A stretch of DNA of 64,000 nt from Leptospiraceae bacterium (GCA_015075105.1 JABTUZ010000001.1:1189001-1253000), one strand, 5' to 3'. Numbered from the stretch's first letter, positions 4,453 to 34,058 are shown. Notes: generated by a model not told the origin, from the letters alone. Made by a program: numbers and translations.

Positions 4453-4467
4453 TTTAGCGTTGGTTTG

Positions 4468-17114: not shown

Positions 17115-17229
17115 AGTAAAATTGTCGGAAATCCTTTGAAGTTTAGGAGTTTATTCTCAATTAGACATAATATTTTTATACATCTTGAATTTCCACAAAA
17201 AAGAATCTCCTATTTGAAAAAAATAGAGT

Positions 17230-17317
17230 CTTTCCGAGACACGATGTCGAGGAAACCTACACAAATAAAGTCCCAAGCGTCAATCCTCTTTCGGTTCAAG
17301 GCTGAGGCTAAAATGTC
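17230..17317. other. Right end module of cassette C9 with palindrome
   Basis: Contains CGAGACACGATGTCGAGG and runs to the R box at 17318. Read on the - strand it matches the left end module of C9 and the right end module of C3 (GTAGGTT, CGTGTCTCGGAAAGA). Confidence 0.7.
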
Positions 17318-17449
17318 GGACAACGGTTCTGGTATTTATGAAGGGCGGGATTAGATGTACAAAAGTTAAGCTTTGCACTACCGCTTAATAGAATTACTGT
17401 CGCTGAAATTATGACGTTCAGCCCGCCTTTAATAAATACCATGTTAGCG
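17318..17449. repeat. attC-like site between C8 and C9 (132 bp)
   Basis: Outer boxes are GGACAAC and GTTAGCG. Inner arms TGGTATTTAT...GGGCGGG and CCCGCC...AATAAATACCA are complementary. Confidence 0.8.
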
Positions 17450-17475
17450 GTTCGTTGTTGTTTTCGTGTATTTTT

Positions 17476-17892
17476 TTATTCGTGATAACCCTTTTTTACT
17501 TGTCGTTTTGAAATCCACCAATAATTTCCACAAGGGTCAATTATACCCGATTGTCTGTCTTCGTATGGCATATCTGCTGGTTCAAATTCAATTTTCGCTC
17601 CATTGTCAACGGCTCTTTGATGAACAGCTTCTACATCGTCAACGAAAAGATAAAGTGCTGTTCTCATTCCTTCAAATTGTTCTCTGGCTTGACTAATCAT
17701 AAAGCAAGTGTCGCCTATTTGCAGAATACAGTTTGCTATATCTCCATTGGTTGGGTTTACAGAACGGTTAATTTCTTTCGCAAAAAAGGCATTTTTCAGA
17801 AAGTCAATTAAGAGTTGTGGTTTGTCAACAAAAAGATATGGAGTAACTGTATGAAAGTTGTCAGGTTTGTATGTATTAAGTATGTCGTTCAT
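17476..17892 (-). CDS. VOC superfamily (glyoxalase/PhnB-like) protein
   Basis: The 138-residue protein has the beta-alpha-beta-beta-beta repeat pattern of the vicinal oxygen chelate fold, with TVTPYLFVDKPQLLIDFL at the start and the typical end DRQSGIIDPCGNYWWIS. Such proteins bind a divalent metal and serve as lyases, dioxygenases or drug-binding resistance proteins. The exact role cannot be told from sequence. It is the sole gene of the small cassette C8, which has classical integron cassette size (534 bp). Confidence 0.8.
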   Translation of the reverse strand: MNDILNTYKPDNFHTVTPYLFVDKPQLLIDFLKNAFFAKEINRSVNPTNGDIANCILQIGDTCFMISQAREQFEGMRTALYLFVDDVEAVHQRAVDNGAKIEFEPADMPYEDRQSGIIDPCGNYWWISKRQVKKGYHE

Positions 17893-17969
17893 TTTTTACA
17901 TTTTTAGGTTTAGAATTTACTTATCTTTTTTATTCAGTCATTTTTAGGGGTGCGTTTTTCTACAATGAC

Positions 17970-18112
17970 CGCTAACGTTCAAGCGTGTGAGAAGTTTTTC
18001 GAGGGCATGGTTCTTGCTTCTTCTCTGCAAGAACCATGACCGAAGAAAAATTTGGCGAAGCCCGAAACCAGCCCTTCAGTTCGGGCTGGTTGAAGCTCAC
18101 ACGCTATTATAG
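17970..18112. repeat. attC-like site between C7 and C8, crossover base altered
   Basis: The left box CGCTAAC and inner arms AAGCGTGTGAG/CTCACACGCT are intact. The right box reads ATTATAG rather than GTTRRRY, so the conserved G of the core is A. Flanking GGGC and T-run still match the other end of C7. Confidence 0.75.
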
Positions 18113-18121
18113 GGCGTTTTT

Positions 18122-18822
18122 TTAACTATTTTCAATAATTTTTTTTAATAATTCTATCTTATCTTTATTTAAATTCCTAAAAGCAAGACCGATACCATTG
18201 TTATCTATTCTTACAACTCCAGTAGAGAAATTATAAGATTTCTCTTCAAAATATATTTCCACTTCAATTTCTTCTGTTAGCTGGAAGGGGCATTCAGGAA
18301 AAAAGACAAAAATTCCACTTAGACTTGCATCTGCTGTTACGTAATCGATTCCTTTTATTTTTACTCATAATTCAAGGGGGTTCTCTTTTCTCCTCGCCAA
18401 CCTCTTGGATACATTTTTAAATAAGGAGCGGATATATCTTTTTTGCAGAAGTAGATAACTAATGATAACCAGACTATTGTCCTGAATAATATTCCTGAAT
18501 TTTGAATACTAGGAAGAACAACTAACGAGTAAATATTCTGGAAAATTAGGATACTTGAATAAGTTAAAAATAAATACCATCCTCTTTTCTTACCTAAGAA
18601 TAGCATTATAGCAATCAGGATAGGAGCAAACAACATAATATTAGTAAATACTGAAAGTTTTGATGGTATTTTATGAAAGTCTTTAAAAGGTATATTGTTA
18701 CTCAAGCCCATGTAAGAGATATTGATTAGTGGCAATACAAATAAAAACAAAGACAAAATCATTATACTGGTTGGTATCTTTATTCTTTTTCGTCTCTCAG
18801 TTAAAAAATTAAATATTTTCAT
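18122..18822 (-). pseudogene. Membrane protein with C-terminal PilZ domain, frameshifted
   Basis: The first frame (18822-18361) encodes 153 residues with about four membrane helices, ending GWRGEKRTPLNYE. The next frame continues without a start codon as VKIKGIDYVTADASLSG and ends at 18122. Together they give a PilZ-like domain with the R-xxx-R type start, the (T)ADASLSG motif and VVRIDNNGIGLAF. PilZ domains bind cyclic di-GMP, so the intact protein would be a membrane receptor. Restoring one G in GAGTA (18362-18366) would join the two frames. It is the last gene of the cassette C7 operon. Confidence 0.75.
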
Positions 18823-18831
18823 ATATTTTCC

Positions 18832-19077
18832 CTAGAATGAAGTGTTTACACATGGGCCAGAGACAGTGTTTTGAGAACCTCCGCAATTACTGTCTTTTTG
18901 CCTATCAGTAAGACTATTAGGTTGTGAGTTTATACAATTCATATAAAAAAGAATTAAAATCAAGCAACTATTAGTTTTTTCTTTTTCTTTCTCCTTCTTC
19001 TCTTTTTCTTGAAAAGGAGGAAGATTGCTGCAACCAAGGTTGAAAGCTATAATTAATAGAATAATTAAATTTTTCAT
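18832..19077 (-). CDS. Small lysine/glutamate-rich lipoprotein
   Basis: The start MKNLIILLIIAFNLGCSN contains a lipobox (NLGC), so the 81-residue product is probably a lipoprotein. The middle is a KEK repeat-like stretch, and the C-terminal half has several cysteines. The ATG overlaps the stop of the SGNH-like gene by four bases. I chose this ATG over an upstream in-frame one because of the signal sequence and the overlap. Function unknown. Third gene of cassette C7. Confidence 0.6.
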   Translation of the reverse strand: MKNLIILLIIAFNLGCSNLPPFQEKEKKEKEKEKTNSCLILILFYMNCINSQPNSLTDRQKDSNCGGSQNTVSGPCVNTSF

Positions 19078-20801
19078 AAACGACACGCTCCAAAGAAAAA
19101 ACAAGCGGCAAGCAGAAGTAAAGTATTATCATCAACAGCTGGTCTTGGAGGTGGCTCATAAGTAGGTGCAGGTGGTGGCACTTCCGCCGGTCTCTCATTA
19201 TTGGGAGCATTTGGGTTTTGCACGACAACTGGCGGAGGTGGTTTAGGGGTATTATCAATACATTTCCCATTTACCCATTCATGGTATGTTTTAGTCATAC
19301 ATTCTTCATAAGGACCAGGGTCATTGGGTTCTATAAAACAACCATCCTTATAGGCAAAAGGAGTTTGCTTGATATTTGCTTTTTCATGCTTTAAAATTCT
19401 ATCAAGTGTAGCTCCATAAGCTTGATAGCCTAAATGATTGGGATGGATCGAGTCATTACTGGCTCTTGCTTGAATTAATTGATAAAAATAATCCTCAGTA
19501 CTACTTGCATCAAATTCCATGTTCCAAAAATTTCTATTTCCAACATACCAGTAGCCTTTAGAAAGTGCATCATAGTCTACAAATGTATAGTATAAAGTAT
19601 GCATCCCTGCACCGCGACTATTTGCAATAGATGCCATAACAAGATTCAATTCAATAAGTCTTTGACTAACCCAAGAATTGTCGCCACGCATTTTATCGCA
19701 AAATCCAGTTCCATTTAATTGCATTGTACTAAAGCAATCAAGAATTGTAGTCAAAGTTACATTCTGACCCCTTAACGCTTTTTGCAGATAATCGTTTAAT
19801 AAAGAAGCAGTCGCTGCTATCGTTCTTCCGCCAGGAATATCCAGATAATTCGCCTTAACAATTGTTGTTCCATCGGGAAGTTTTTCAAACCAATCTTCAT
19901 ATCTATTGAAAAGGTTAAGTCGTCCTAAAGTAGAAACAAGAGATTCCCCTGATCCGGGATAATAGGAAGGCAAAGGCATATAACCAATTAATGTTTTTCT
20001 TGTTCCTGACTGTCTTTCTATATATGTCATAATCCTATCCAATTGATTTGCGACATGGTTATGACGAAAAGGAACTAAGACGGGAAATGTTTCGAGTAAG
20101 GTTTTATATAAACCAGCATTAAAATCATTTCCGCCTATCATCACAAAAACATTTCTATTTTGGAATTGGACATAGCCTGAATATTTATCTGCGTTTGGAG
20201 GAGGATTGCAAGAAAATCGACCACGAGGGTTATTTTCACATGAAAGCTGATCGGGTGCAGGTGTCCATAATTGGGTATTTTGTGAGGCACAGGTATCCAA
20301 CCATTCTGAAAGGTCTTGTGAAGTTGCCATTCCAACTCCGCCATTTACGATTCCCCACCCAGGTGCGTAGTCCTTATTCCATGTATATGAAGCACCACCA
20401 ACAGATGATATTACTGTTCCCAATGCAGTTATTGAATCACCCAATAATATATTATTGTAAAAATTTGGGGATTTTTTTAATAGACTGGAATCTCCCGTGA
20501 GAGGAACATTTGTCCCATCATCTGAAAATTGTGCATATTCAGGAAGTTGTACATTGTTTGGATCATTAGGATTTGAACCTTTTAAAGAACAGCCACATCT
20601 TTGAGAAAATTTATCTCTTACAACTCCCTTTGAGTATAATACTGCAATAATGCCTCTTCCAAGTTCATTCTTAAAATCCTTTTCCTTCTTATTATACAAA
20701 GCATTATTTATCTCGTCAAGTAAAGGCAATGGAGAAAGTGAATCAGAATGTAAGTGACTGTTTGACAACAAGATTATTAGTAGAATATTTAAATATTTCA
20801 T
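19074..20801 (-). CDS. Secreted SGNH/GDSL-like hydrolase, copy 2
   Basis: The 575-residue protein matches the copy at 35-1768 almost throughout, including the signal peptide, LLGDSITALG, MIGGNDF and DSIHPNHLGY. Differences cluster near the N-terminus (a deletion after residue 20) and around residues 133-140, where an insertion (VISSVGGAS) follows the GDS motif. It overlaps its lipoprotein partner at 20798-20801. It belongs to cassette C7, an operon in the order lipoprotein, SGNH, small lipoprotein, membrane-PilZ. Its presence in two cassettes of one array points to duplication within the integron or repeated capture. Confidence 0.75.
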   Translation of the reverse strand: MKYLNILLIILLSNSHLHSDSLSPLPLLDEINNALYNKKEKDFKNELGRGIIAVLYSKGVVRDKFSQRCGCSLKGSNPNDPNNVQLPEYAQFSDDGTNVPLTGDSSLLKKSPNFYNNILLGDSITALGTVISSVGGASYTWNKDYAPGWGIVNGGVGMATSQDLSEWLDTCASQNTQLWTPAPDQLSCENNPRGRFSCNPPPNADKYSGYVQFQNRNVFVMIGGNDFNAGLYKTLLETFPVLVPFRHNHVANQLDRIMTYIERQSGTRKTLIGYMPLPSYYPGSGESLVSTLGRLNLFNRYEDWFEKLPDGTTIVKANYLDIPGGRTIAATASLLNDYLQKALRGQNVTLTTILDCFSTMQLNGTGFCDKMRGDNSWVSQRLIELNLVMASIANSRGAGMHTLYYTFVDYDALSKGYWYVGNRNFWNMEFDASSTEDYFYQLIQARASNDSIHPNHLGYQAYGATLDRILKHEKANIKQTPFAYKDGCFIEPNDPGPYEECMTKTYHEWVNGKCIDNTPKPPPPVVVQNPNAPNNERPAEVPPPAPTYEPPPRPAVDDNTLLLLAACFFFGACRL

Positions 20802-21488
20802 AGACCTCTCCTTTTTATTTCATCAATAATATTTTTCCGTAATTCCCAAAGTTCTACAATACAGTTTCCAAGAAATGCTTCATCAACTGTATTACTATCA
20901 AATTCTACTTTATAGTACATATCGAGCATATTAAATAGCTGAAAGTTAACCATTCTTCTATAGATTATCAATAACTCATCATTGGCTTTTGGAACATCAA
21001 CCTTTATCTCATCTATATAGGACGATTGTATTTGGTTTAACGTCCATCCTTCTTGATAGTTTGGAGGCTTTCCAATAATTTTTACTGTTTCAGAAAACTC
21101 TTTCGATTGGATATAGTCTTGCATATTTTTCAAATTTGCCATTTGCACCTTTCTCATTTCTGGTTCAAAATCTCCAAATGCAACTGAGGTCAAAGTATCA
21201 AGTGTCACTTCTTCATCTTCGACATTAGACAAAATATATGGACTACTGACCGTTTTGCTTTCATCAAAATATAGATCAGAGTTCACAGGCTGATTTTGAC
21301 TTCCGATATAGAACAGAAATAGATGCATGGGTTTTAGTGACTGACCTCCATCAAGACCCAGGATCTTATGTATATCAATTTTAAATTTATTGGCCTTCAA
21401 TGATTCTGGAAAGGAAGACTATCGGTTTATCTATACCGATACAGTTTAAGAAAACCAAGAATATTAGTTTTGTAAAAAGTTTTTCCAT
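20798..21488 (-). pseudogene. Lipoprotein partner of the SGNH protein, copy 2, signal peptide out of frame
   Basis: The body (from 21400) matches copy 1 (1765-2454), but the signal peptide encoded from the ATG at 21488 is in another frame. Where copy 1 reads CTTAGAGCCAGAATC, copy 2 reads CTTCCTTTCCAGAATC (about 21405-21425), one base longer. Unless an internal start (M at 21400) is used, the protein would not be exported. Upstream sequence, ribosome binding site and the attC boundary are the same as in copy 1. Confidence 0.7.
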
Positions 21489-21525
21489 ATTTTTCCTCCT
21501 GAGAATTAAATCTTAAAAAAATGCC

Positions 21526-21633
21526 CGCTAACGTTCCGCGGATATATGACGTTTTGCCGTAGCGTACTCGCGAAGGCAAAATGTGGCGAAGCCCAAGCCG
21601 GTACTCCGGCGCAGCATATATGCGCTGTTAGAC
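21526..21633. repeat. attC-like site between C6 and C7 (108 bp)
   Basis: Outer boxes are CGCTAAC and GTTAGAC. Inner arms CGCGGATATATG and CATATATGCGC are complementary. Confidence 0.8.
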
Positions 21634-21662
21634 GATGAACCGCGCCTTTCTCACAATGAGCC

Positions 21663-21681
21663 ATTTCTTAATCCCGCCCCC
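21663..21681. repeat. Left copy of a 19-bp perfect inverted repeat bounding the C6 operon
   Basis: ATTTCTTAATCCCGCCCCC here is the exact reverse complement of 27617-27635. The two copies stand outside the three-gene restriction operon and inside the C6 attC boundaries. Confidence 0.85.
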
Positions 21682-21718
21682 CTCTTCCGCCGGAGCACAG
21701 GACGTGCGGAGGCGGTCT

Positions 21719-24241
21719 TCATTTGAAATATTTTTTAATTTCAGTTTCCTCTTGTCCTTGTTCTACAAGATAAAATTCAACATTATCATTTACCTGACCA
21801 AAAGGAAGTTCCATTTGCTCGTAATGCTGTATCTTCTTTATTCTCTTTTGTTCAGTCATGATGTCCAGAACCTTCTTTTTATAGGTAGTATCTGCGTTAC
21901 CCAATAAATGCTCACCCTTGCTTTCGAGTATATAAACAAGTTCAAGTTTACCATCATCATTCTTCTTTGCGGCAACAAAGTCTGGTCTGATTTTATGTTC
22001 GTGCCAGCCTTGAATTGAATACCAGTTTTTAGATACTTTATTCCTGTACCACCATAATATTTTTTCCTGCTTATCCAGTAAATCTCCAACTTTTTGCTCT
22101 AGTGAATTCATTGAAGTTAAGTCAACATCTTCAAAAAGGTAGTATTTATATGGATTTGGAATTCGACTGACCACAATCGTATCCACATCGGGAACTTTGA
22201 AGCCTAAACTTGTATCATTGGATACTGCGAGAACGATCTTCTTGTCTTGAATATATTGTAAAAAAAGAGATTCTTCTGATTTTAATTTAAAATCAAGCAA
22301 ATGATTATATAAAATTGCAGATGTATAACCGAAATTCTCTTCTAATGCTTCTTTTCCGATTAATTTTGTTAATTCCACAATATGTGATACTGCCAATTTT
22401 CTGGCGTAAAACGGATTTTCTGCGAGTTCTGTGTAACGGCGTGTAAGATAATCTATATTGATTTCTTTTGTTTCGTTAACTCCGGTTATTTCATATTTTG
22501 ATTGCACTTTGCTTTGAGAATCAAGAGTTACGACAATTGATCGCCGTTCTTTTGTCTCTTCACTAAATGATGATTGAAGACTTTTAACGAAATCGGAAGT
22601 AATAGAAAACAAATCGTAATTGATGAAAGGCTTTATATCAAGCTCATATGAGAACCGGCGTTTATTCTGACCTTTGTTTATCATTACCCAAACAGGAAGA
22701 TAAAATGAGCTTTCAAAACTCTTTTTATAATCCTTACGAATTTTAACCTGTTTTGTCTGATTGATAGAATTATTGTTATCGACTTTTATTCCAGTGACAA
22801 GGTCTTCCAGACCTTCATTCTTGAATCCGGTATCTACTTTTTCAAGGATGGAACGGGTGTCTCCTTTTGAATAGTAAACATAACTTTCATCAAGTTCAGA
22901 AATACCTGTTTTACGTGCGTAAGGTTGACGAAGAATTCTTCCAACAAGCTGGGTAATTCCAGTGTCCGAATTTACATTTGGAATAATCCCAAGCATATAG
23001 GCGAAAGAACAATCCCACCCTTCACGAAGGGCTTCCTTTGTAATTATATAGCGGACATTACAATCTTGCGCAAACAGATTAACGTCTTCAATGTCATTTT
23101 GTGAGCTTGATTTTATCGCTATTTCATCTGGGTTGATTTCTAATTCCTGTAAGTATTCCTTAACATCCATACTGTGAACAAAGCCCTTGCCTCTCTGTTC
23201 TTTACCGGTTCTTTCGACTTGAATCAATGCAATCGGGCGAATATAGACACCGGAAGTTTGTTTGTATTTGATTGTTTTCGCTTCGAGAGTTTCTCTATGA
23301 GCTTTAATCTCTTTAAGCATTGTTTTCCAGTCATCTTCCTTTTTCCCGGATGGTGGTATTATATGCATATCGAGTTTTATCATTTCTTCATCTTTAAGCT
23401 CGACACCTGTTATAGAGACAAGAATATTCATTTCTGTTTTCGGCGTGGCGGTCAGTCCTAGTACCATTTCCGGATTTAAGCCATCAATGGTTTTTCTCGC
23501 CATTTCAGAAAAAACTTTATGCATCTCATCAATGATAATAAACGGCTTCGATAAACGAATAGCATTACCAAGGCTGGTATTAATAATGGGGCCTATTTCT
23601 GAAAGCAAATCAAGATTAGGGCATTTATTTTTCAGTTCGGCATGAAGGTCAAAACGATTATCAGGCGGGAAAAAACTTTCAAAACCACCTGAATCCTGAA
23701 ATACCTTTAATGCTTCCTTTCCATTCTGTCGGCTGATTGACTGAATCATAACAAAAAGTATTACGAGGTTTTCTTCAATATCGTGAGTCGCAAGTCTTTG
23801 TCCCTTTTCAAGAATGAGTGTTTTATTACTGCTTGCCTGATCAAGTAATTGACGTAATGGGTTGGCCTTATCCCGTAATTTTGCGACTGTTTGTGAATAG
23901 ATCGTTTCGCTGGGAACAATCCACAAAACAAGTCCTGTCCGTTTACGGGCAAAAATATTTTGATATTCCCGAATTGATTCTACTGCAAGAAGCGTTTTGC
24001 CTCCGCCTGTCGGAACTTTTATAACAAAGCGGGGGTAATATTCACCAAAACCATTTGTAGGCCGGTCTCTGTAATCTTTTGCGGTATTTTGAAAAGCGGT
24101 TTGTACCCAGTTCAAGGTATGCCGCATTTCAGGAGGTAATGCTTTTTTTGCAGTATCAAAGGCATCCTTAGTTTCCCTTGCTTTTGAATAAAAGGCTTTT
24201 AGCTCAGATACAACTTTAATCTGGTATTTTTTCAGAAACAC
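21719..24241 (-). CDS. Type III restriction enzyme, Res subunit
   Basis: The 840-residue protein is a DEAD-like helicase with a C-terminal nuclease. Motif I is VPTGGGKT near residue 75, motif II is DEMH near residue 240, motif III is GLTATP near residue 263 and motif VI is LVGRILRQP near residue 435. Near the end RPDFVAAKK followed by VYILESKG fits a PD-(D/E)xK nuclease. In type III systems Res translocates or slides on DNA and cuts when two unmodified sites are found, always in complex with Mod. Mod lies 2 bp upstream. Part of cassette C6. Confidence 0.9.
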   Translation of the reverse strand: MFLKKYQIKVVSELKAFYSKARETKDAFDTAKKALPPEMRHTLNWVQTAFQNTAKDYRDRPTNGFGEYYPRFVIKVPTGGGKTLLAVESIREYQNIFARKRTGLVLWIVPSETIYSQTVAKLRDKANPLRQLLDQASSNKTLILEKGQRLATHDIEENLVILFVMIQSISRQNGKEALKVFQDSGGFESFFPPDNRFDLHAELKNKCPNLDLLSEIGPIINTSLGNAIRLSKPFIIIDEMHKVFSEMARKTIDGLNPEMVLGLTATPKTEMNILVSITGVELKDEEMIKLDMHIIPPSGKKEDDWKTMLKEIKAHRETLEAKTIKYKQTSGVYIRPIALIQVERTGKEQRGKGFVHSMDVKEYLQELEINPDEIAIKSSSQNDIEDVNLFAQDCNVRYIITKEALREGWDCSFAYMLGIIPNVNSDTGITQLVGRILRQPYARKTGISELDESYVYYSKGDTRSILEKVDTGFKNEGLEDLVTGIKVDNNNSINQTKQVKIRKDYKKSFESSFYLPVWVMINKGQNKRRFSYELDIKPFINYDLFSITSDFVKSLQSSFSEETKERRSIVVTLDSQSKVQSKYEITGVNETKEINIDYLTRRYTELAENPFYARKLAVSHIVELTKLIGKEALEENFGYTSAILYNHLLDFKLKSEESLFLQYIQDKKIVLAVSNDTSLGFKVPDVDTIVVSRIPNPYKYYLFEDVDLTSMNSLEQKVGDLLDKQEKILWWYRNKVSKNWYSIQGWHEHKIRPDFVAAKKNDDGKLELVYILESKGEHLLGNADTTYKKKVLDIMTEQKRIKKIQHYEQMELPFGQVNDNVEFYLVEQGQEETEIKKYFK

Positions 24242-24243
24242 GG

Positions 24244-25839
24244 CTAAGCCTCCGATCTCTGAAAGAGATTATAAGGAATACCAACATACTCAATGCTGTT
24301 CTCTTTCATATAGTCTTCTTCTAAGAAACAAGCGGGAGCATAAACAATGATTCTTTTTTTGGGATGATTTGCTATTATTTTTTCAGCAACAACGAGGTTT
24401 AACGCCATCCGGGTCAGCTCATCAAAATTCTGTTTGTAGATGAGATAAATTAAACTATTACTGTGTTCTCCAACAAAATAATTCTTCTCATCAATACTTT
24501 TTTTGTCTTTCAGGCTTTCACCAGTGCATAAGTAATATACATAATCGGCAAATTGCATGTAAGTTGGAAGATTTCCGGAAAGCATTGTTTCTGCATCTAT
24601 TGGTATACCGACTTTAAGATATTTAAAACCGGTATCATAGCCATATTTATCAATTGCCCGTTTTATCCGTTCGCGAGTTATATCTTTACAGATATTTTTG
24701 GTTGGATCTGATTCAGTTGCTTCTGGCATTTGAATGAGAATACATTTCCGGTTGCCTTCGTCTTCTTTATTCAAATCCATTACAGCGTGCATTGTCGTGC
24801 CGGAACCTGCAAATGAATCGAGGATTAAGCAACCATTATCACAACTTAAGGTAATAATTTTCTTTATTAATTCTATTGGCTTAGGAGTATCAAAAGGTGA
24901 TTTACCATCGAATAGTTCTTTTAATAACTCACTTGCTGTGCGTGTTGTACCAGAGTCTTTAGCAAACCAAATAGTTTCTGGAACTCTACCTTTTTGATCT
25001 TTAAGATAGATTTTAAATATTAAACGGGTTTCATCTTTATTAAATATAACTTGTTTTCGTTTCATTTTTTCTTGCATTGTTTCTTTAGAAAAACGCCAAC
25101 CATTCTCTGGCGGATTAATCGTTTTCCCTGAGGGAGTACTAATATCATAAATCAAATTTGGACGATATAAAGCATTTCTAATATCACCATTTCTCCAGAG
25201 ACCATTAGGGTCGTTATCTGGATTTGAGTAATGTGTATTATCTTCATCAGTCCTATCTAGTAGGTTAAGGGTAAAATTATTATACTTCTGATAACAGATA
25301 ATATAATTGTGATGAACAGAAAATTTTCCTTCGTACCCTTTACCTTGAACGCTGTGTTGCCAAATGATAGTACCTAAGTAATTTTCATCACCAAATATTT
25401 CATCCATTATTTGTTTTAAAAAATGTTGTTCATTGTCATCAATAGTAATAAATATTGCGCCATCATCTGATAGCAATTCTCTTAACAATTTTAATCTTGG
25501 GACAATCATGCATAGCCATTTATCGTGCCGAGTTAAATCATCTTTACCGACTTCTTTACCCAGCCAATCTTTTAACATTGGATTATTTACATTATCATTG
25601 TATATCCATTGTTCATTACCGGTATTGTACGGGGGGTCGATAAATATACATTTTACTTTGCCTGCGTATTGAGGAAGCAGTGATTTTAAAGCCAGCAGGT
25701 TGTCGCCTTCGATAATGAGATTGCCATTACTTTTCTCTTCATGAAAATTAAGCTTATCTACTTCATCTAGGGTATGGTAAGGAATTGAAAGATGATGATT
25801 CCAAATTATATTCTTGCCTTTAAATTGTAATGTCGGCAT
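24244..25839 (-). CDS. Type III modification methylase, Mod subunit
   Basis: The 531-residue protein has the beta-class N6-adenine methylase motifs DPPYNTG near residue 88 and DSFAGSGTT near residue 343. It would recognise the DNA target and methylate adenine, protecting host DNA and directing Res. It is shorter than many Mod proteins, which often reach about 600-650 residues. It lies between the Res gene and the OLD-like gene with only 2-3 bp gaps, so all three are one transcription unit in cassette C6. Confidence 0.88.
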   Translation of the reverse strand: MPTLQFKGKNIIWNHHLSIPYHTLDEVDKLNFHEEKSNGNLIIEGDNLLALKSLLPQYAGKVKCIFIDPPYNTGNEQWIYNDNVNNPMLKDWLGKEVGKDDLTRHDKWLCMIVPRLKLLRELLSDDGAIFITIDDNEQHFLKQIMDEIFGDENYLGTIIWQHSVQGKGYEGKFSVHHNYIICYQKYNNFTLNLLDRTDEDNTHYSNPDNDPNGLWRNGDIRNALYRPNLIYDISTPSGKTINPPENGWRFSKETMQEKMKRKQVIFNKDETRLIFKIYLKDQKGRVPETIWFAKDSGTTRTASELLKELFDGKSPFDTPKPIELIKKIITLSCDNGCLILDSFAGSGTTMHAVMDLNKEDEGNRKCILIQMPEATESDPTKNICKDITRERIKRAIDKYGYDTGFKYLKVGIPIDAETMLSGNLPTYMQFADYVYYLCTGESLKDKKSIDEKNYFVGEHSNSLIYLIYKQNFDELTRMALNLVVAEKIIANHPKKRIIVYAPACFLEEDYMKENSIEYVGIPYNLFQRSEA

Positions 25840-25842
25840 GGG

Positions 25843-27564
25843 TTACTCCTGTATTAAAGATTCAAATTTAGTTTTAAGCTCAGACAGCTTACTTTCGGTG
25901 ATTTTACCTTCATTTAATGCCAATAGAACGTTGACGGGTTTCTGGTCATTTCTATTTGGCAATGTAACTCCCAGGTAATTCTCTAAATCAACATCAAAAG
26001 AGTCAATTTTAATAGTAAATGGTGTTATTTTTTGTGTAATATAGTCATTCACTATCTGCTGATAAGCTTTGTCTGCATCTCCATCATACAAAACCGAATG
26101 ACGAATTCCAAGACTTCCAAGAAGGTTCATGAATTTATGAATATTGAACTTTCCAAGTGAATCAAAAATGTAAATTTGCCGCTTTTTCAGATCAATCCAC
26201 TTTGTATCCAGGAGATAGTCAAAAAGAGCCTTTTCGGTCGCACCCTCGCATAAAATTACATGCTTTGAGAAAAACAAATTTGATCGTTCGGAATCAAGCC
26301 ATAGAGAATAACGAAAGGCCTCCTCTTTAAGTTTTCTATCCATATCCGGTGTTGAATGACCAAGATTATGATCTTTTATTGCTTTTTTAATTTCTGGTGA
26401 TGTTTTATCATCAATCAACAAAGCTGAAAAATGGGAATACAAACCGGTATTATCTGCTACCAGTTCATCAATTTGCATCTTTGTTAATTGACGGTTTTCA
26501 GATACACCTGCTTTTTTAGCAATTTTAATTATGGATGGCAAGTCAGAAATGTTTTTACTTACAAACGTAGTTGAATGCGTAGTTATAAGTACCTGACTAT
26601 CTATTGAAATCTCTTTCAAACTTAAATTGAGTAATTCCTGCTGTGTTGGGTGCAGAAATGCTTCTGGTTCTTCAAAAAGAATCAGATTAAAGTCAGGTGA
26701 AAACTCTTTTTTCTTCGGTTCCTTTTTATCAACATATTTTGAAGCAAGTCTGATTAAAGTGTAGATAATGTGCCGTTGAAGACCTTGTCCTAAGTTATCA
26801 ATATCTACTTGATTATGACCAAGATTACTGTCAGTGATATAATGATTCAGAAGATTTTTTACAATATCTTCCGGCTTCAATGAACCTATTTTAAATCCGA
26901 ATGATATTTCCCAATTTGAAATTTGATTATTGATATCATTTACCAAGCCATTGAGTGAAAAATCATCTGTGGTTGATTCCTGCTTAAATTCATCATTGAA
27001 TGACTCCAAAGCTTTTCCAAGCTCAGAGTAAGCGGTGCTGGTTAATACAGCCTTTTTAAATACAAAATTTGTTATTTCTCGTAATGGAGAAGGGCCTGAC
27101 AATTTCATATTATCAGATGTTTTGCTCATTTCAGGTATATAGATTACTGTCCCCAATTTCGCTGAGGATACATTTTTCCAGCCATAAAAACTGGTGCTGG
27201 ATAAAGTATTATTTTCATAACCATAAATATTTCCAATCAAGTCTTTGTTTTCTGTTAAAAAAAACCTTCTAACCTTAAAGGAGTTTGGAGTGATCTTATA
27301 CTCGTCCTTTAAAGTAGTTGCTTCATCGTCAGTTAATGAATATTCAATATCGATCCATGATTCATTATCGTCCGTGGTAAATTTTGGAAAATCTCTTTCC
27401 TTTGAAAATTTCAATCCGCTTTCTTCATAAAAAAGTCTTAAAGCAGTAATGACATTTGTTTTTCCGGCATTATTCTCACCTACAAGAAGAGAAAATGAAT
27501 TTAATATTATAGTCGCATCTTTAATCGATCTGATATTGTGAATTATTACTTTTTCGATTTTCAT
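25843..27564 (-). CDS. OLD-family ATPase with TOPRIM nuclease domain
   Basis: The 573-residue protein starts with an ABC/SMC-type ATPase (Walker A LLVGENNAGKTN near residue 26). Walker B-like LILFEEPEAFLHP lies near residue 295 and TTHSTTF about 35 residues on. The C-terminal TOPRIM region has VILCEGATEKALFD near residue 433 and LYDGDAD near residue 490. OLD nucleases cut DNA and include phage-defence proteins such as GajA. No UvrD-like GajB partner is present. Instead it is the first gene of an operon with type III Mod and Res. Whether it assists restriction or defends independently is open. Confidence 0.8.
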   Translation of the reverse strand: MKIEKVIIHNIRSIKDATIILNSFSLLVGENNAGKTNVITALRLFYEESGLKFSKERDFPKFTTDDNESWIDIEYSLTDDEATTLKDEYKITPNSFKVRRFFLTENKDLIGNIYGYENNTLSSTSFYGWKNVSSAKLGTVIYIPEMSKTSDNMKLSGPSPLREITNFVFKKAVLTSTAYSELGKALESFNDEFKQESTTDDFSLNGLVNDINNQISNWEISFGFKIGSLKPEDIVKNLLNHYITDSNLGHNQVDIDNLGQGLQRHIIYTLIRLASKYVDKKEPKKKEFSPDFNLILFEEPEAFLHPTQQELLNLSLKEISIDSQVLITTHSTTFVSKNISDLPSIIKIAKKAGVSENRQLTKMQIDELVADNTGLYSHFSALLIDDKTSPEIKKAIKDHNLGHSTPDMDRKLKEEAFRYSLWLDSERSNLFFSKHVILCEGATEKALFDYLLDTKWIDLKKRQIYIFDSLGKFNIHKFMNLLGSLGIRHSVLYDGDADKAYQQIVNDYITQKITPFTIKIDSFDVDLENYLGVTLPNRNDQKPVNVLLALNEGKITESKLSELKTKFESLIQE

Positions 27565-27591
27565 TTTCTGAACTCCTTTTTCTTCTCTTTA

Positions 27592-27635
27592 GCCCGCCAC
27601 GGACGGCGGGCGTCTTGGGGGCGGGATTAAGAAAT
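27592..27635. repeat. Right inverted repeat of C6 plus GC-rich hairpin
   Basis: GCCCGCC/GGCGGGC (27592-27612) forms a hairpin. It is followed by GGGGGCGGGATTAAGAAAT (27617-27635), the partner of 21663-21681. A similar GC hairpin occurs near the right ends of C5 (28189-28206) and C4 (about 31123-31143). Confidence 0.75.
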
Positions 27636-27688
27636 AATTTTATCAACCATATTATATTTTTTCAACCAAAAGTCTGGCGCGGTTTTTC

Positions 27689-27787
27689 ATCTAACGTTTG
27701 CTTATGTGACGTCGCGGCAGCCTTTTGCCGCGATGTGGCGTAGCCCGAACGAGCGACAGCGAGTGGAGCACATAAGCGGTGTTGTGC
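27689..27787. repeat. attC-like site between C5 and C6 (99 bp)
   Basis: Outer boxes are ATCTAAC and GTTGTGC. Inner arms TTTGCTTATGTG and CACATAAGCGG are complementary. About nine tenths identical by eye to the next site at 28227. Confidence 0.85.
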
Positions 27788-28226
27788 GACGTAGCAACAC
27801 TACTATACATTCAGAAACTTTGAAGCATGGACGCTGAAAAGTTTGCAACAAATTTCTGACACGATGCCTTTTAGTTCAAATGTGTCGCCTTTGTCTTTTT
27901 GTTTTTTAAATCTTTTACTTCTTTTACGCCTTTACGCCTTTTAAACATTTCAAATTCTTCATGTCTTTTACGCTTTTAATTCTTTAAAATCTTTTACGCC
28001 TTTTAAATACTTCAAGCTCTTCATGCCTTTTACGCTTTTAAAACTTTTCAATACAATTCCTGAATTTATAAATATTACCTGGATTCAAAAAAGTAAATCA
28101 CATTTTTTAAATTTCATTCACACAAATCAAGTTGCTATACATTACAAATATATTTCTATTTCTTTAATTCTTTTGCTTTTGCCTTTTAATCGCCACGGAT
28201 GGCGATACTAATTTTGTTGCTATGTC
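27788..28226. other. Cassette C5 body, no convincing gene, degenerate repeats
   Basis: No open frame with a start and ribosome binding site stands out on either strand. Around 27910-28045 a degenerate repeat built on CTTTTACGCCTTTTAAA and TTCATGCCTTTTACGC recurs in four or five versions. Read on the - strand it would give Lys-rich peptides but every frame is interrupted. The ends carry TAGCAACA complementary to each other and a hairpin ATCGCC...GGCGAT at 28189-28206. It could be a dead gene, a non-coding RNA or a purely structural cassette. Confidence 0.6.
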
Positions 28227-28327
28227 GCACAACGTTTTGCTTATGCGAAGTCGCGGCAGCCTTATAGCCGCGATTTGGCGTAGCCCGAACGACCGCCAGG
28301 GAGTGAAGCGCATAAGCTTTGTTGTGC
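28227..28327. repeat. attC-like site between C4 and C5 (101 bp)
   Basis: Outer boxes are GCACAAC and GTTGTGC, perfectly complementary. Inner arms TTTGCTTATGCG and CGCATAAGCTTT are complementary. Shares GCGGCAGCCTT and TGGCGTAGCCCGAACGA with the site at 27689. Confidence 0.85.
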
Positions 28328-28360
28328 GAAGGTGATGCGCCCTTAATCAAAAAGTCAGTA

Positions 28361-28384
28361 AAATACATGGATGTATTTTACTAT
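28361..28384. other. Short palindrome near the left end of C4
   Basis: GTAAAATACATGGATGTATTTTAC folds into a hairpin with a 2-4 base loop. It lies about 40 bp inside the C4 boundary, comparable in place to palindromes at other cassette ends. Confidence 0.6.
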
Positions 28385-28462
28385 TCAACAAAATAATCCT
28401 GCTTTAAGTATTCACCACGACTATCATGCATTAAACTCAAACTGGATAATAATATAAAAAAC

Positions 28463-28491
28463 TTGACATTGTATTTATTAATTTTTAACCT
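28463..28491 (+). promoter_or_regulatory. Candidate promoter for the erm leader
   Basis: A perfect -35 TTGACA (28463-28468) is followed at 17 bp by TAACCT, a weak -10. It lies about 90 bp before the leader peptide. A second AT-rich -10 candidate (TATACT) occurs near 28550. Confidence 0.4.
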
Positions 28492-28583
28492 TTGATAAAG
28501 TATTATTTGTTTGATTAAAAAATCTACTTTTTTTTAGCATTAAACATAATCTATACTTAAATAAAATGAGGAGGTATTATTTA

Positions 28584-28607
28584 ATGGCATCTATTCGCAG
28601 GAGATAG
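28584..28607 (+). promoter_or_regulatory. erm leader peptide MASIRRR
   Basis: A seven-codon ORF follows a strong ribosome binding site (GAGGAGG, 28568-28574, 9-base spacing). The encoded MASIRRR contains Arg-X-Arg, the known motif at which macrolide-bound ribosomes stall. Its last codons overlap one arm of a hairpin (AGGAG...CTCCT, up to about 28650). This fits a translational attenuator controlling the erm gene at 30275. Confidence 0.7.
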
Positions 28608-28776
28608 AAAGGGCAATAAAATTGCAAACTCCTATCTAACAATGGGTAACTTATGCTATTTATTTGCTCTCATTTTTGCGAATGATGTGTACATTATTGT
28701 GAATTAATGTTTTATCTTATTTAGTATTCATTTTTTTATATAGCTGCACAGGCAAAGTTTACCCCTAATTGGGATG

Positions 28777-28817
28777 CCTGCATTTTTATTGCCATTTCGT
28801 TTTTTGAGCAATATAAA
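28777..28817 (+). promoter_or_regulatory. Left part of the erm attenuator stem, cut by the IS
   Basis: CCTGCATTTTTATTGC (28777-28792) pairs at 15 of 16 positions with GCAATATAAATGCAGG, the second arm. That arm begins at 28808 and resumes after the IS at 30250-30264, where it includes the first part of the erm ribosome binding site AGGAGG. An upstream GCACAGGCA (about 28745) could pair alternatively with the left arm. The IS insertion point lies within the second arm. Confidence 0.7.
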
Positions 28818-30249
28818 GAAATTGTCCCGCTGTTAGTGGAAATTCTTTAGCGGTATAAATCTCATACTTTTAACCAGCCTTGCTGTCAATTTTTAATTTT
28901 TGATCTTCAAGTATTTTTTCCATGTTCTTTACAAGATAGCTTATCCCTACGAACCCTTTAACACGGTGCATGCGCTCTTCACTCTGCAGTATTGCCGAAG
29001 CAAGCCATCTCTTCTTCATGTCACCCTTGCCCCATTTTTTAACCCTGTGAGCAAATCGTTCAAGAGAGCTATTAAGGCTTTCTATCGGGTTAGTAGAGTA
29101 TACTGTCTTATAAAGATAGGGGGAAACTCCAAGTTTTAAAACTGTCAGAGTTTCCTCCATGCCTTCGCGGACACTACGTCCCATGTCAGGATTAATATTG
29201 TCAGCCCATTTCGCAAATGAATTTAACAGGGCAAGGGCTTTCTCATAGTCTTGTTCTGCATATGCCGCATTAAGTCTGCGTTCAACTTCAACTTTCATTT
29301 TTTCCGGTGCATGATCTATGATGTTGCGTTTCTTATGCTCCCGGCATCGCTGAATAAAACAATTATCGAAGCGTTTTGTTATGGCTGAATAAATGGCCTT
29401 CGCTCCGTCAATCACAAACAGCACAGGCCGTTCCTTTTGCAATCCCCGGTTTTCCATGTCATCAAACATGGAATTGATAATACCGGCATTCTCTGTTCCT
29501 CCCTGGCGCATCGAAAGGGCCTTTTTTACGCCATTTTCATTGACTCCCAACGCAATAATCATCATGTCCCCACCAATTTCATATCCATCAATGAAAATTA
29601 TAGGATAGTACCCGTCAATTGGACGCTCATCAAACTCTTTGAGAGCCCGGGCGCTTGCCTTGACAAAGTGACGGCTTACGCTTGATTTTTCTATCCCATA
29701 TGAATCCTGAATTGCTTCAGCGACTGCTCTGTAGTTGCGGGTAGATACACCATGCAGCATTTTCGCCATTACACTGGCCTCAATTATGCTATTTCTCTGA
29801 AAATTATTATACATTTCAAGGGGCTCCTCTTTCTTCGAGCCTCCCCGTTTTACGATCCTCGGCTTTTCCAGTTGTATCTTTTGTCCGTTTACAATAACAT
29901 AACCAGTCTTCTGTTTGCCATGACGATAACAGGCGTGGGATGTCGAGCGCTCATAAGGTTTGCCGCATTTGCTCTCTATTTCGGCATCTATCATTGCCTT
30001 GATCGCCAGCAGGGCTATACCGTTTACAAATTCATTGACTCCCTGTTCGTAAAGCTCCTTCAATTCTTTTCTCGGAGCAATGAAGTCATAGAGAGATAAA
30101 ATCTCATTGAATTCTTTTTGTCTTGACTCTTTAACATTTGTCTTTTTTACTTTTTTTGAGTTCATAGTGGTTACTCCTTTGATTGTTATTTATCCAAGTA
30201 CTAATCTTGGGTAACCGCTATGAATTTCAACTAAAACAGGGACATGCTC
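28818..30249 (-). mobile_element. IS256-family insertion sequence in the erm leader
   Basis: The 1432-bp element has imperfect inverted ends sharing TGTCCC and GAAATTC. The 9-bp sequence CAATATAAA is repeated at 28809-28817 and 30250-30258, the size of target duplication expected for this family. It carries one transposase gene on the - strand and appears intact. It separates the erm gene from its promoter and leader. Confidence 0.9.
28870..30165 (-). CDS. IS256-family (mutator-type) transposase
   Basis: The 431-residue protein has the mutator-family layout. The N-terminal region contains YERSTSHACYRHGKQKTGY. Catalytic Asp residues lie in IIFIDGYEIGG near residue 192 and VLFVIDGAKAIYSA near residue 252, with a later acidic residue in STNPIESLNSSLERF near residue 375, giving the DDE triad. 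Length and ends are complete, so the element may be mobile. Transcription runs opposite to the erm gene it has displaced from its leader. Confidence 0.9.
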   Translation of the reverse strand: MNSKKVKKTNVKESRQKEFNEILSLYDFIAPRKELKELYEQGVNEFVNGIALLAIKAMIDAEIESKCGKPYERSTSHACYRHGKQKTGYVIVNGQKIQLEKPRIVKRGGSKKEEPLEMYNNFQRNSIIEASVMAKMLHGVSTRNYRAVAEAIQDSYGIEKSSVSRHFVKASARALKEFDERPIDGYYPIIFIDGYEIGGDMMIIALGVNENGVKKALSMRQGGTENAGIINSMFDDMENRGLQKERPVLFVIDGAKAIYSAITKRFDNCFIQRCREHKKRNIIDHAPEKMKVEVERRLNAAYAEQDYEKALALLNSFAKWADNINPDMGRSVREGMEETLTVLKLGVSPYLYKTVYSTNPIESLNSSLERFAHRVKKWGKGDMKKRWLASAILQSEERMHRVKGFVGISYLVKNMEKILEDQKLKIDSKAG

Positions 30250-30261
30250 CAATATAAATGC

Positions 30262-30267
30262 AGGAGG
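30262..30267 (+). promoter_or_regulatory. erm: Ribosome binding site of erm, deciding a TTG start
   Basis: AGGAGG stands 7 bases before TTG at 30275. No ATG exists at a suitable distance. Before the IS inserted, this site was part of a 16-bp stem and would have been hidden. Confidence 0.75.
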
Positions 30268-30274
30268 AAATACA

Positions 30275-31069
30275 TTGCCTAATTGTAAACATAACAATAA
30301 AAACAAGTACATCTTTTCTCAAAATTTTTTAACAAATAGACGTTTAATAGAGAAAATTGTTTCTCTAAGCACTATAACAAAATGTGATACCGTTCTTGAG
30401 ATAGGAACAGGAAAAGGACATCTAACAGGTGTGCTATCTCAAAAATGTAATTTTCTTTTTTCAATCGAAATAGACGAAGTACTTTATCATAAGTCTATGA
30501 TTAAATTGAAAAAATATAATAATATTAAACTTATTAATGAGGATTTCTTAAATTACTCATTGCCTCGTAAAATCAGTTATAAAGTTTTTGCCAACATCCC
30601 TTTTTCTATAACAACTCAGCTAATTGATAAATTAACAAAAGCTCCTAATCCACCTGACGAAATGTGGCTCATTGTAGAAAAGGGAGCGGCAAAGAGATTT
30701 ATGGGGATAAAAAAAGAAACTATTAAATCATTACTTCTAAAACCGAATTGGGAAATTGATATAATATTTCATTTTAGAAGGGATGATTTCCATCCGAAAC
30801 CCTCTAAAGATTCCGTACTGCTTCACTTTTATAGAAAACATATCCCTGATATTGCAGAATCAGAGTTTGGAGCATATAAAAAATTTATAGAACAATCTTT
30901 TAAATATGGTTTTTTTAAGAAAAAGAGTTTACTGACAAAGAAACAAATAGCTACTGTATTAAAATTAGCAGAATTACCATCCATTTCTAAAGATGGCGTA
31001 ATTCTTTACATACAGTGGCTGTGTTTGTTTCGATGTTATATAAATTTTATAGAAAAACAAAAAATGTAA
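30275..31069 (+). CDS. erm: 23S rRNA adenine-N6 dimethyltransferase, Erm family
   Basis: The 264-residue protein starts with the typical FSQNFLTNRRLIEKIV. SAM motif I is LEIGTGKGHLT near residue 42, a NEDFLNY segment follows, and the catalytic motif is FANIPFSITTQLID near residue 107. Near residue 170 RRDDFHPKPSKDSVLL matches the substrate region. Erm enzymes dimethylate A2058 (E. coli numbering) of 23S rRNA and give macrolide-lincosamide-streptogramin B resistance. NIPF rather than NLPY and the leader peptide upstream favour Erm over the housekeeping KsgA. It is reversed in cassette C4, so it relies on its own promoter, which an IS now separates from it. Confidence 0.85.
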   Translation: MPNCKHNNKNKYIFSQNFLTNRRLIEKIVSLSTITKCDTVLEIGTGKGHLTGVLSQKCNFLFSIEIDEVLYHKSMIKLKKYNNIKLINEDFLNYSLPRKISYKVFANIPFSITTQLIDKLTKAPNPPDEMWLIVEKGAAKRFMGIKKETIKSLLLKPNWEIDIIFHFRRDDFHPKPSKDSVLLHFYRKHIPDIAESEFGAYKKFIEQSFKYGFFKKKSLLTKKQIATVLKLAELPSISKDGVILYIQWLCLFRCYINFIEKQKM

Positions 31070-31174
31070 TCAGCTAATGGTATTCTACCTTTTTACTAAC
31101 ATAGATACTTGATGGCTTATAAACGGCGGGCAGGACGCCCGCAGTAAAATTAATAACTAGGGCGCATCACTTTC
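31070..31174. other. Right end of cassette C4 with GC-rich hairpin
   Basis: GCGGGC/GCCCGC (about 31125-31142) forms a hairpin that may terminate erm transcription. Bases 31159-31181 are the reverse complement, with one mismatch in 23, of the left end of C4 at 28321-28343. Confidence 0.65.
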
Positions 31175-31472
31175 GCACAACGTTAAGAGTATCCGACGTT
31201 GAGAAAATGGGAAGAAAATGCCCCAAGCATTTTTCTTTCCATTTTCTCAATGTCTCCGAGCCAACAACTACTAGCAAGTCCTGTGACTGAACGGATGGCA
31301 CGCAAACTTGCTCTTTTCTGCAAGTTTCGTGACAGGAGTGAAGGCGCTGGACTTGCGTAAGTTCAACAAAAATACTAAAAAGTTTGGCTAATACAACTTT
31401 GCCGGCTTGGAGCAAGGAGGTGAACAGCTTCCGACATAGTTCACCTCCGCAGTGGATACTCGTAGTTAGTTG
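31175..31472. repeat. attC-like site between C3 and C4 (298 bp)
   Basis: Outer boxes are GCACAAC and GTTAGTT. Inner arms AAGAGTATCC and GGATACTC are complementary. The interior shares long blocks with the site at 2492-2772, so both belong to one long attC subfamily. Confidence 0.8.
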
Positions 31473-31735
31473 CTGTTTTAGACTTGTGTATTACTAAAAA
31501 GTCTGACTAATGCCTTCTACGAGAACCAGCCGAGACACGATGTCGAGCGTAATACTTACTCCATTCCACAATACGATTCTTTTATATGTTGGGTTTGCGA
31601 AGTTGCTTGTCAAATCCTATTCTGTAGCAATTTTGCAAATCCAACGTTGGACGCGTAATAATTAAGATTTCCTCAGTTTTTTATCTTTTTTTACTCTAAT
31701 TATTTTTTTTAAAAAATAGCTGCTTTTTTTATACT
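31473..31735. other. Left end of C3: palindrome and a decayed attC remnant
   Basis: The end module contains CGAGACACGATGTCGAG (about 31533-31549). At 31588-31652 GTTGGGTTTGCG and the later GCAAATCCAAC, followed by the core GTTGGAC, look like an attC whose left R box is lost. This suggests that C3 arose by fusion of two cassettes. Confidence 0.6.
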
Positions 31736-32812
31736 ATGCCTTATACTGACCTATTGAGGATATTTAAAACTATGAAATTCAAACTTGGTGAACTATTTTG
31801 TGGAGCTGGTGGTATTGGATTAGGTGCTATTAATGCTAAGTTATCTCATAATGGCAAACAATATTCTATTGAACATGAATGGGCTTCTGATTATGATAAA
31901 GACGCTTGTGAAACCTATAGAGCTAATATCTGTCCTGAAAATCCAAAGTCTGTTATATGCACAGATGTTAGAGATTTAGACATAAAGAAACTTTCCAAGA
32001 TTGACGCTTTGGCTTTTGGATTTCCTTGTAATGATTTTTCCGTAGTTGGGGAGCAAAAAGGTATGGATGGAGTTTATGGGGCTTTATATTCCTATGGAGT
32101 AAAAGTTCTTAAACAATTTCAACCGACTTGGTTTTTAGCTGAGAATGTAGGCGGGCTTCGCAATTCAAATGAAGGTAAAGCATTTGAAGAAATAATAAAA
32201 GAACTTACAAAAGTTGGTTATAATGTAACTTCTCATCTTTATAAATTTGAAGAGTATGAAGTTCCTCAAGCAAGACATAGAATTATTATCGTAGGATTTA
32301 GGAATGATACGAAGTTAAAATTTAAAATTCCAGTTCTTTCTAATCCTAAAATAATTACAGCACGACAAGCTATTACAATTCCTCCGATTCCAAAAGATGC
32401 GGCTAATCAAGAGTTTACGAAACAATCTGTTCAAGTAGTAGAGCGACTCCAATATATCAAAGCTGGAGAAAATGCATTTAATGCAACATTACCGGAACAT
32501 TTGACACTAAATGTAAAAGGTGTAAAAATGAGTCAAATCTATAAGCGGTTACATCCAGATAAACCTTCTTATACAATAACTGGTAGCGGAGGCGGAGGAA
32601 CTCATGTTTATCATTGGAAGGAAAATAGAGCTTTGACAAATAGAGAGCGCGCTAGATTGCAAACCTTTCCAGATAACTTTATATTTAAAGGTTCTAAAGA
32701 ATCTGTCCGAAAACAATTAGGTATGGCAGTTCCGCCTAAAGGAGTTCAAATAATTTTTGAATCAATTCTTAAAACGATTGCAGGGGTAGAATACAATCAT
32801 CTTGAATCTTAA
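31736..32812 (+). CDS. DNA cytosine-C5 methylase
   Basis: The 358-residue frame contains the C5-methylase motifs in order: LFCGAGGIGLG (motif I), FGFPCNDFS (motif IV with the catalytic Cys), ENVGGL (motif VI) and QARHRIIIVG (motif VIII), with RLQTFPDNF near the end. A start at the internal Met before KFKLGELF (31772) would fit the family better than the annotated one. It protects host DNA from the nuclease encoded 17 bp downstream. Unlike most cassette genes it reads towards the integrase, so it must have its own promoter. Confidence 0.88.
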   Translation: MPYTDLLRIFKTMKFKLGELFCGAGGIGLGAINAKLSHNGKQYSIEHEWASDYDKDACETYRANICPENPKSVICTDVRDLDIKKLSKIDALAFGFPCNDFSVVGEQKGMDGVYGALYSYGVKVLKQFQPTWFLAENVGGLRNSNEGKAFEEIIKELTKVGYNVTSHLYKFEEYEVPQARHRIIIVGFRNDTKLKFKIPVLSNPKIITARQAITIPPIPKDAANQEFTKQSVQVVERLQYIKAGENAFNATLPEHLTLNVKGVKMSQIYKRLHPDKPSYTITGSGGGGTHVYHWKENRALTNRERARLQTFPDNFIFKGSKESVRKQLGMAVPPKGVQIIFESILKTIAGVEYNHLES

Positions 32813-32829
32813 CAAAAATTATTACTATT

Positions 32830-33807: not shown

Positions 33808-33819
33808 TTTTACTTTGCA

Positions 33820-33906
33820 TCTTTCCGAGACACGACGTCGAAGGAACCTACGACAGTAAAGCTCAGGCATTAGTCCCTAGAAAAATATGGTCAAGTCTAA
33901 AATGGC
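33820..33906. other. Right end module of cassette C3 with palindrome
   Basis: Contains CGAGACACGACGTCGA. Read on the - strand it matches the right end module of C9 (TTTTAG, GTAGGTT, CGTGTCTCGGAAAGA) and in part the left end of C3. Confidence 0.7.
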
Positions 33907-34038: not shown

Positions 34039-34058
34039 GTTCGGTGTTTTGTTTTTCG

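Follow-up and report, generated by a model that had tools for sequence, protein, structure and literature searches.

We analysed a stretch of 64,000 nucleotides from a Leptospiraceae bacterium (GCA_015075105.1, JABTUZ010000001.1:1189001-1253000; "the window" hereafter means this whole stretch), in which an OLD-family nuclease gene lies directly in front of the mod and res genes of a type III restriction-modification (R-M) system. We consider it fairly probable that this locus is a two-layer defence unit on a single mobile cassette, with OLD as a generic add-on to the R-M system. The three genes are closely spaced and keep their catalytic motifs, OLD recurs beside type III genes in other genomes, the two parties exchange partners between loci, and the trio is delimited as one cassette of a larger array. 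Coordinates are those of the window unless a locus is named, and labels such as G209 or L002 are our own.

An OLD nuclease in a type III restriction-modification operon

The three genes are as follows (lengths in amino acids, aa):

25843-27564, minus strand: OLD-family nuclease (ABC ATPase and TOPRIM), class-1-like, 573 aa, ATG start (Pfam, PADLOC, alignment)
24244-25839, minus strand: type III R-M methyltransferase/specificity subunit Mod, 531 aa, ATG start (Pfam, PADLOC)
21719-24241, minus strand: type III R-M helicase-nuclease subunit Res, 840 aa, GTG start (Pfam, PADLOC)

They form one unit, with 3 bp between OLD and mod and 2 bp between mod and res. OLD matches the Pfam domains AAA_15 and OLD-like_TOPRIM (2e-25 and 5e-17); Mod matches N6_N4_Mtase in Pfam and the type III methyltransferase profile in PADLOC (5e-147), and Res matches ResIII in Pfam and the PADLOC type III restriction endonuclease profile (4e-131). 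The tight coupling of the three genes, which the initial annotation had proposed, is borne out by these gaps and domain identities.

The motifs of all three proteins are intact. In an alignment of six proteins the Walker A residues G29..K35, the segment E298-E299-P300-E301 and H330 of OLD are invariant, as are the TOPRIM residues E440-G-A-T-E444 and D494/D496. The Mod translation carries legible IDPPY and FAGSGTT motifs, and that of Res PTGGGKT, DEMH and PDF..ESKG. Mod is thus a beta-class protein with an N6/N4 methyltransferase domain and the DPPY and FxG motifs of a type III Mod; Res has superfamily 2 (SF2) helicase motifs, a C-terminal PD-(D/E)XK motif and a gene adjoining mod, as type III Res proteins do.

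The window OLD combines ABC ATPase and TOPRIM in a single polypeptide with the catalytic residues kept, as in class 1 OLD proteins. It does not stand alone as these do: it is 3 bp from mod, and its relatives in G209 and G009 are linked as well. By sequence, the nearest solved structures are those of Thermus scotoductus OLD, GajA and PtuA; with P2 Old a relationship is detectable at 24% identity. Membership in several known systems was rejected. The neighbours of the gene are mod and a cassette without an open reading frame (ORF), which rules out both Gabija, there being no UvrD-like GajB, and a retron. The phage anti-restriction-induced system (PARIS) is ruled out by the lack of an AriA/AriB split, the window OLD being one 573-aa protein with its own TOPRIM.

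OLD genes recur beside type III genes

Among 296 Spirochaetota genomes we found 49 OLD-like TOPRIM genes, five of which are in-operon neighbours of type III genes (the window, G209, G009, G011 and G172). The neighbourhoods of 40 were read by script and others from further regions, and the fetched neighbourhoods contained no further OLD with type III genes within ~5 kb. A crude model of random placement, which takes each genome to have 3000 genes and 1.5 mod loci, predicts 0.04 in-operon pairs, or 0.7 with 20-fold clustering in defence islands (P ~1e-3 for the five observed). About a dozen of the 49 belong to Gabija, and a large Treponema-like group of 512-aa proteins has neither Gabija nor type III partners.

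Of the 393 Spirochaetota genomes sampled, four have the subfamily of the window OLD, and in three of these it lies beside type III mod/res. Its four members form one clade (Shimodaira-Hasegawa-like approximate likelihood ratio test, SH-aLRT, 98); long-branch joins in the OLD tree (L075, L080 and the second OLD of L002) were left unused. In G209 an OLD 60% identical to that of the window is placed 17 bp ahead of mod, with res following. The order in G009 is res-OLD-mod, pieced together from two contig ends with an exact overlap of 141 bp. Other OLDs accompany type III genes in G011, G172, G340, G308, G511 and a second locus of L002. The linkage of OLD-type genes to type III genes recurs, with short gaps, across several families in two phyla. 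A scan of genome contigs with the window OLD as the only query matched L002 alone, and the second type III locus of the same genome (L085) is without OLD.

The initial annotation had asked for a search for the trio in other genomes, and this search finds OLD with type III genes again, both in G209 and G009 and, with other OLDs, elsewhere. It had also reasoned that the idea of a composite system would be refuted if the trio were unique to this locus and OLD were usually found without Mod-Res. The second part describes the family well (about 44 of the 49 Spirochaetota cases lack Mod-Res); the first does not, as the trio is present in the window, G209 and G009.

OLD and Mod-Res exchange partners

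Comparing all proteins of these loci against each other, with a threshold of E<=1e-5 for Res matches, we were able to find exchange in both directions. Between the window and G209 the OLDs are 60% identical, the Mod match is confined to a catalytic core of 174 residues (39%) and Res gives no match. Between the window and G011, Mod (53%) and Res (50%) are similar and the OLDs align at 27% over 245 aa; the G011 OLD belongs to a different subfamily and is located after res, at the opposite end of the operon from the window OLD. In both G340 and G308 (Bacteroidia) res is directly followed by Gabija, with 81% identity in GajA and 87% in GajB; their Mods are 36% identical over 392 residues, and the Res proteins do not match. 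Finally, G209 and G308 share Mod (57%, in the N-terminal part) and Res (60%), and the OLD is 5' in G209 and Gabija 3' in G308. Similar OLDs with unrelated Res, and similar Mod and Res with another OLD, favour an add-on second layer over a subunit of Mod-Res.

Other genes are embedded in R-M operons in the same manner. A complete Gabija pair is inserted between mod and res in G172, and a PtuA/PtuB-like pair in G007. Schlafen-AlbA, Fic, HipA_C, KilA-N and DUF1016/YhcG proteins also lie between mod and res (L071, L110, L114, L116, L105, L111 and L098). R-M operons thus act as carriers of swappable second-layer modules, and an OLD fitted to one particular Mod-Res is unlikely.

Arrangements of this kind were also recorded locus by locus. 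A complete Gabija pair lies between type III mod and res in L080 (2813-10681) and directly after type III res in L095 and L115, and a Septu-like PtuA/PtuB pair separates mod from res in L086 (3717-10912). Gabija is found inside type I R-M operons in L150 (2172-13855; hsdM..hsdS-gajA-gajB..hsdR) and L159 (1899-10999; hsdR-hsdM-hsdS-gajA-gajB). In L144 (4455-8902) an OLD gene lies downstream of an MmeI-type R-M gene, with a 4-bp overlap between the two. On a plasmid of Chryseobacterium oryzae (L138, 4004-11190), IS91 elements flank a single operon that consists of a helix-turn-helix gene, an AAA_13 gene (PrrC/RloC-like ATPase, 866 aa), mod and res.

The trio as a single cassette in an integron-like array

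The positions 21627 and 27695, between which the initial annotation placed the operon, coincide exactly with the two outer limits of an inverted repeat, which is the signature of cassette ends. Reading the intergenic DNA by eye, we found attC-like sites on the minus strand that bound gene groups across 14-36.4 kb:

14090-17323, minus strand: cassette with an N6-methyltransferase (type IIG-like) and an HsdS-like protein
17324-17975, minus strand: cassette with a glyoxalase-family gene
17976-21531, minus strand: cassette with a GDSL-like protein and ORFs of unknown function; fold of its own attC z = -8.7
21526-21636, minus strand: attC-like site of the trio cassette, GTCTAAC...GTTAGCG, single-strand fold z = -4.85
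21532-27694, minus strand: complete OLD-mod-res cassette, 6163 bp, beginning with the TT that follows the upstream attC's cut point and ending on the G of its own attC
27689-27795, minus strand: attC-like site of the preceding cassette, GCACAAC...GTTAGAT, weak fold, z = -1.5
27695-28232, minus strand: ORF-less cassette, 538 bp
28227-28329, minus strand: attC-like site, GCACAAC...GTTGTGC, fold z = -5.24
28233-31180, minus strand: cassette with an rRNA-dimethyltransferase-like gene (30275-31069, plus) and a mutator-family transposase (28870-30165, minus)
31181-33912, minus strand: cassette with a C5-methyltransferase and an NgoFVII-type nuclease (31736-33807, plus)
33913-36229, minus strand: cassette with an EcoRI-type methyltransferase and a GmrSD_N/HNH protein
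37273-38427, plus strand: tyrosine recombinase heading the array, with transcription directed away from the cassettes; IntI/XerA-like, without the IntI-specific insert

The first bases of an integron cassette after G|TT are expected to complement the start of its own attC. In eight consecutive cassettes of the window, 45 of the 48 core positions compared between the 5' end and the arm of the cassette's own attC match (24.6 on permutation, P 5e-5); the sites having been chosen by eye, the permutation tests the pairing of ends and not the discovery of sites. Five of the seven attC-like sites tested fold with z < -2.8, attC6 and attC9 being weaker. A strict scan for RYYYAAC/GTTRRRY returned one site, and a loose scan was noisy, with few sites above shuffled sequence; the array was resolved by the matching of cassette ends. 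Judged by sequence rules, the region is an array of attC sites that delimit cassettes.

The array-head recombinase is the best match to integron integrases in this genome, at 205 bits against a curated cut-off of 265 bits. It lacks the additional domain specific to IntI: profile positions 181-237 are unmatched and the insert is missing from the alignment. Under the strict definition (PMC9668308) the window array is, as judged from these features, not a proven integron. Similar IntI-related tyrosine recombinases without the insert were noted in G511 (L099, 2568-3383) and at G296:C72:16625-17434. Those of the window and of L099 head attC-like arrays, and recombinases of this kind may point to an integron platform of a variant type among Spirochaetota and Bacteroidota.

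Cassettes elsewhere point in the same direction. L002, a contig binned as a Flavobacterium metagenome-assembled genome (MAG), shares a 7444-bp segment with the window at 99.6% identity, and this segment starts no more than 1 nt from a predicted G|TT cut point. This junction (31181/31182) is the start of the cassette at 28233-31180. A 2.5-kb region of the window had no match in this MAG (G296), which argues weakly against contamination by the species of the window. The neighbouring cassette on the L002 contig (L230, 107-9284) is attC-bounded, measures 9.2 kb and carries the cyclase of a cyclic-oligonucleotide-based antiphage signalling system (CBASS), a four-transmembrane (4TM) effector, type III res-mod and an OLD; the res-mod and OLD differ from those of the window. 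A third, unrelated set of OLD, mod and res is an attC-bounded cassette beside the insert-less recombinase of G511 (L099, 5594-13747). Between L230 and L099 the attC cores show 91% identity. We looked for cassette signatures around the other OLD/type III loci too, and accepted them for the window, L002/L230 and L099; what was seen at the rest was mostly AT-rich sequence. In L131 (G498, 180-5696), a contig with type III res-mod, attC-like ends match at 12 of 16 positions, which may represent an R-M cassette without OLD, although uncertainly so.

A proposed second layer and its alternatives

We propose that the three genes, which we infer to be co-transcribed, would act in two layers. The type III system most likely forms the first line, with OLD as a co-expressed second effector. 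In the first layer Mod would recognise and methylate an asymmetric site, and Mod-Res would cut unmodified incoming DNA. In the second, the class-1-like OLD made from the same message would attack invading or host DNA when the first layer is incomplete or blocked. On linear DNA, P2 Old and T. scotoductus OLD act as 5'-3' exonucleases (PMC10568477), and OLD could therefore degrade DNA that Res has opened. GajA responds to nucleotide state (PMC10568477), and PARIS and PrrC to anti-restriction (PMC12707154). Digestion of Res-cut DNA, sensing of blocked restriction and independent action could all be reconciled with our computations; the exchangeability of partners favours a generic trigger. OLD would thus be a generic add-on and no dedicated subunit, and OLD, mod and res would travel together, presumably by way of the array-head recombinase, as one attC-bounded cassette within an integron-like array of the chromosome that is stocked with R-M systems. 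The initial annotation had suggested a composite phage-defence system with OLD as backup; the coupling it relied on is real and recurrent, and the variation among loci fits a composite unit, while the cassette context and the swapping of OLD partners had escaped it.

Several observations weigh against this proposal. In two of the three type III-linked loci of the window subfamily the unit may be inactive, to judge from the reading frames: the G009 OLD is frameshifted, and the G209 mod is split by IS66 and other insertion sequences into pieces, the C-terminal one of which precedes res. The fourth member of the subfamily, G084, lies at a contig end, and the 187 bp available downstream contain no mod. 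Sister OLD genes on plasmids, at ~40% identity, stand alone, and this type of OLD can thus exist without Mod-Res. From the gene content of the loci surveyed, OLD is one among many add-ons embedded in type III operons. The fold of attC6, on the 5' side of the trio cassette, is not significant.

It is possible, though rather unlikely, that OLD and the R-M system are independent, each with its own trigger, and are joined by a shared cassette and promoter with no crosstalk. Relatives of OLD do stand alone on plasmids and viral contigs, partners and positions swap freely, and the union of a CBASS pair, a type III system and an OLD in the L230 cassette looks like stacking. However, the OLDs near type III genes sit inside the operon and not merely within ~5 kb of it (49 Spirochaetota genes, 40 neighbourhoods fetched), and this placement implies selection for co-expression.

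A second alternative concerns the cassette and not the trio. The repeats might be palindromic repeats or transposon remnants, and the recombinase an unrelated Xer-like protein, as its sub-threshold score, its missing insert and the poor yield of the generic attC scan would allow. We consider this improbable: the relation between the 5' end and the cassette's own attC holds in eight cassettes, most of the tested sites fold, the L002 junction coincides with a predicted cut point, and G511 repeats the layout with a similar recombinase, the L230 and L099 cores being so alike.

OLD could also belong to the Mod-Res complex as a third subunit or cofactor dedicated to it, as the gaps of 2-3 bp might suggest. 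There is precedent for a third gene in such systems: type III systems such as BspHIV and Eco86II likewise have a gene directly 5' of mod-res, and this arrangement recurs in many genomes (PMC8259958). That gene encodes an SF2-helicase-like ATPase with no nuclease motif, whereas the one in the window encodes an OLD ABC-ATPase/TOPRIM nuclease, and the window trio is thus not a three-gene system of that type. Methylation in that system did not require the extra ATPase, which was also absent from the enzyme as purified (PMC8259958). The same type of OLD occurs with unrelated Mod-Res and the same type of Mod-Res with other OLDs, and close mod-res relatives have no OLD at all (G027, G036, G043 and G285). 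We therefore regard a subunit role as very doubtful. That the genes are chance neighbours in a defence island, their linkage unselected, is extremely improbable in spite of the many R-M genes in the array, given the recurrence in two phyla with short gaps and the delimitation of the trio as one cassette.

Relation to known systems

OLD effectors in operons of the bacteriophage exclusion (BREX) type and in R-M operons are already described. BREX and BREX-related operons contain embedded OLD-TOPRIM, OLD-HNH and other effectors, proposed as backup effectors much as we propose here (PMC12839542); in the window the carrier is a type III R-M system and the unit an attC-bounded cassette. Gabija (GajA-GajB) also uses an OLD nuclease, but the window OLD is class-1-like and has no UvrD helicase partner. 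In architecture (ABC and TOPRIM), size and catalytic residues it resembles the class 1 proteins P2 Old and Thermus scotoductus OLD (PDB 6P74); class 1 OLDs are single genes away from other defence genes (PMC10568477), and this one is in an R-M operon. PrrC/EcoprrI and PARIS likewise tie a second effector to an R-M locus or to the sensing of anti-restriction, but PrrC and AriB cut tRNA (PMC12707154).

In Darracq et al. 2025 (via PMC12409362), chromosomal integrons are described as reservoirs of antiphage functions, with defence genes likewise carried as cassettes. As relayed there, those defence cassettes are small and systems of >2 genes are reported absent; the cassettes found here hold 3-6 genes in 6.2-9.2 kb, and the window recombinase, unlike that of the integrons, has no IntI-specific domain. 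In the papers we consulted we found no OLD and type III cassettes, no reciprocal swapping and no multi-gene defence cassettes of 6-9 kb with such a recombinase, although earlier surveys of ABC ATPases may list OLD with R-M or type III genes; PMC12839542 cites earlier work on ABC-ATPase-anchored R-M-like systems.

A tentative extension, somewhat speculative as yet, is that Spirochaetota and Bacteroidota share a variant integron platform with an insert-less recombinase, which would assemble and exchange multi-gene cassettes of 6-9 kb and stack independent immune layers in one expression unit (type III R-M with OLD; CBASS, type III R-M and OLD). If the attC reading is true, the window provides a counter-example to the absence of >2-gene defence systems from integrons and suggests a route by which layered defences spread between phyla. 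More generally, bacteria seem to mix and match a second layer of phage defence, relatives carrying similar, independently assembled pairings. Class-1-like OLDs, of which phage defence has been shown for P2 Old only, are here placed in a defence operon with a testable partner. The loci also offer a natural two-by-two set (two Mod-Res types, each with OLD and with Gabija) that bears on whether the second nuclease guards the R-M system or merely adds to it.

Other features of the window

In an Rfam scan, RNase P was the sole match. A possible extra cassette at 2498-4146, whose ends match at 15 of 16 positions, suggests that the array may extend below 14 kb. At 9009-13376 lies a gene for a 1455-aa protein that unites an AcrB-type resistance-nodulation-division (RND) pump and an outer-membrane efflux (OEP) domain in a single chain.
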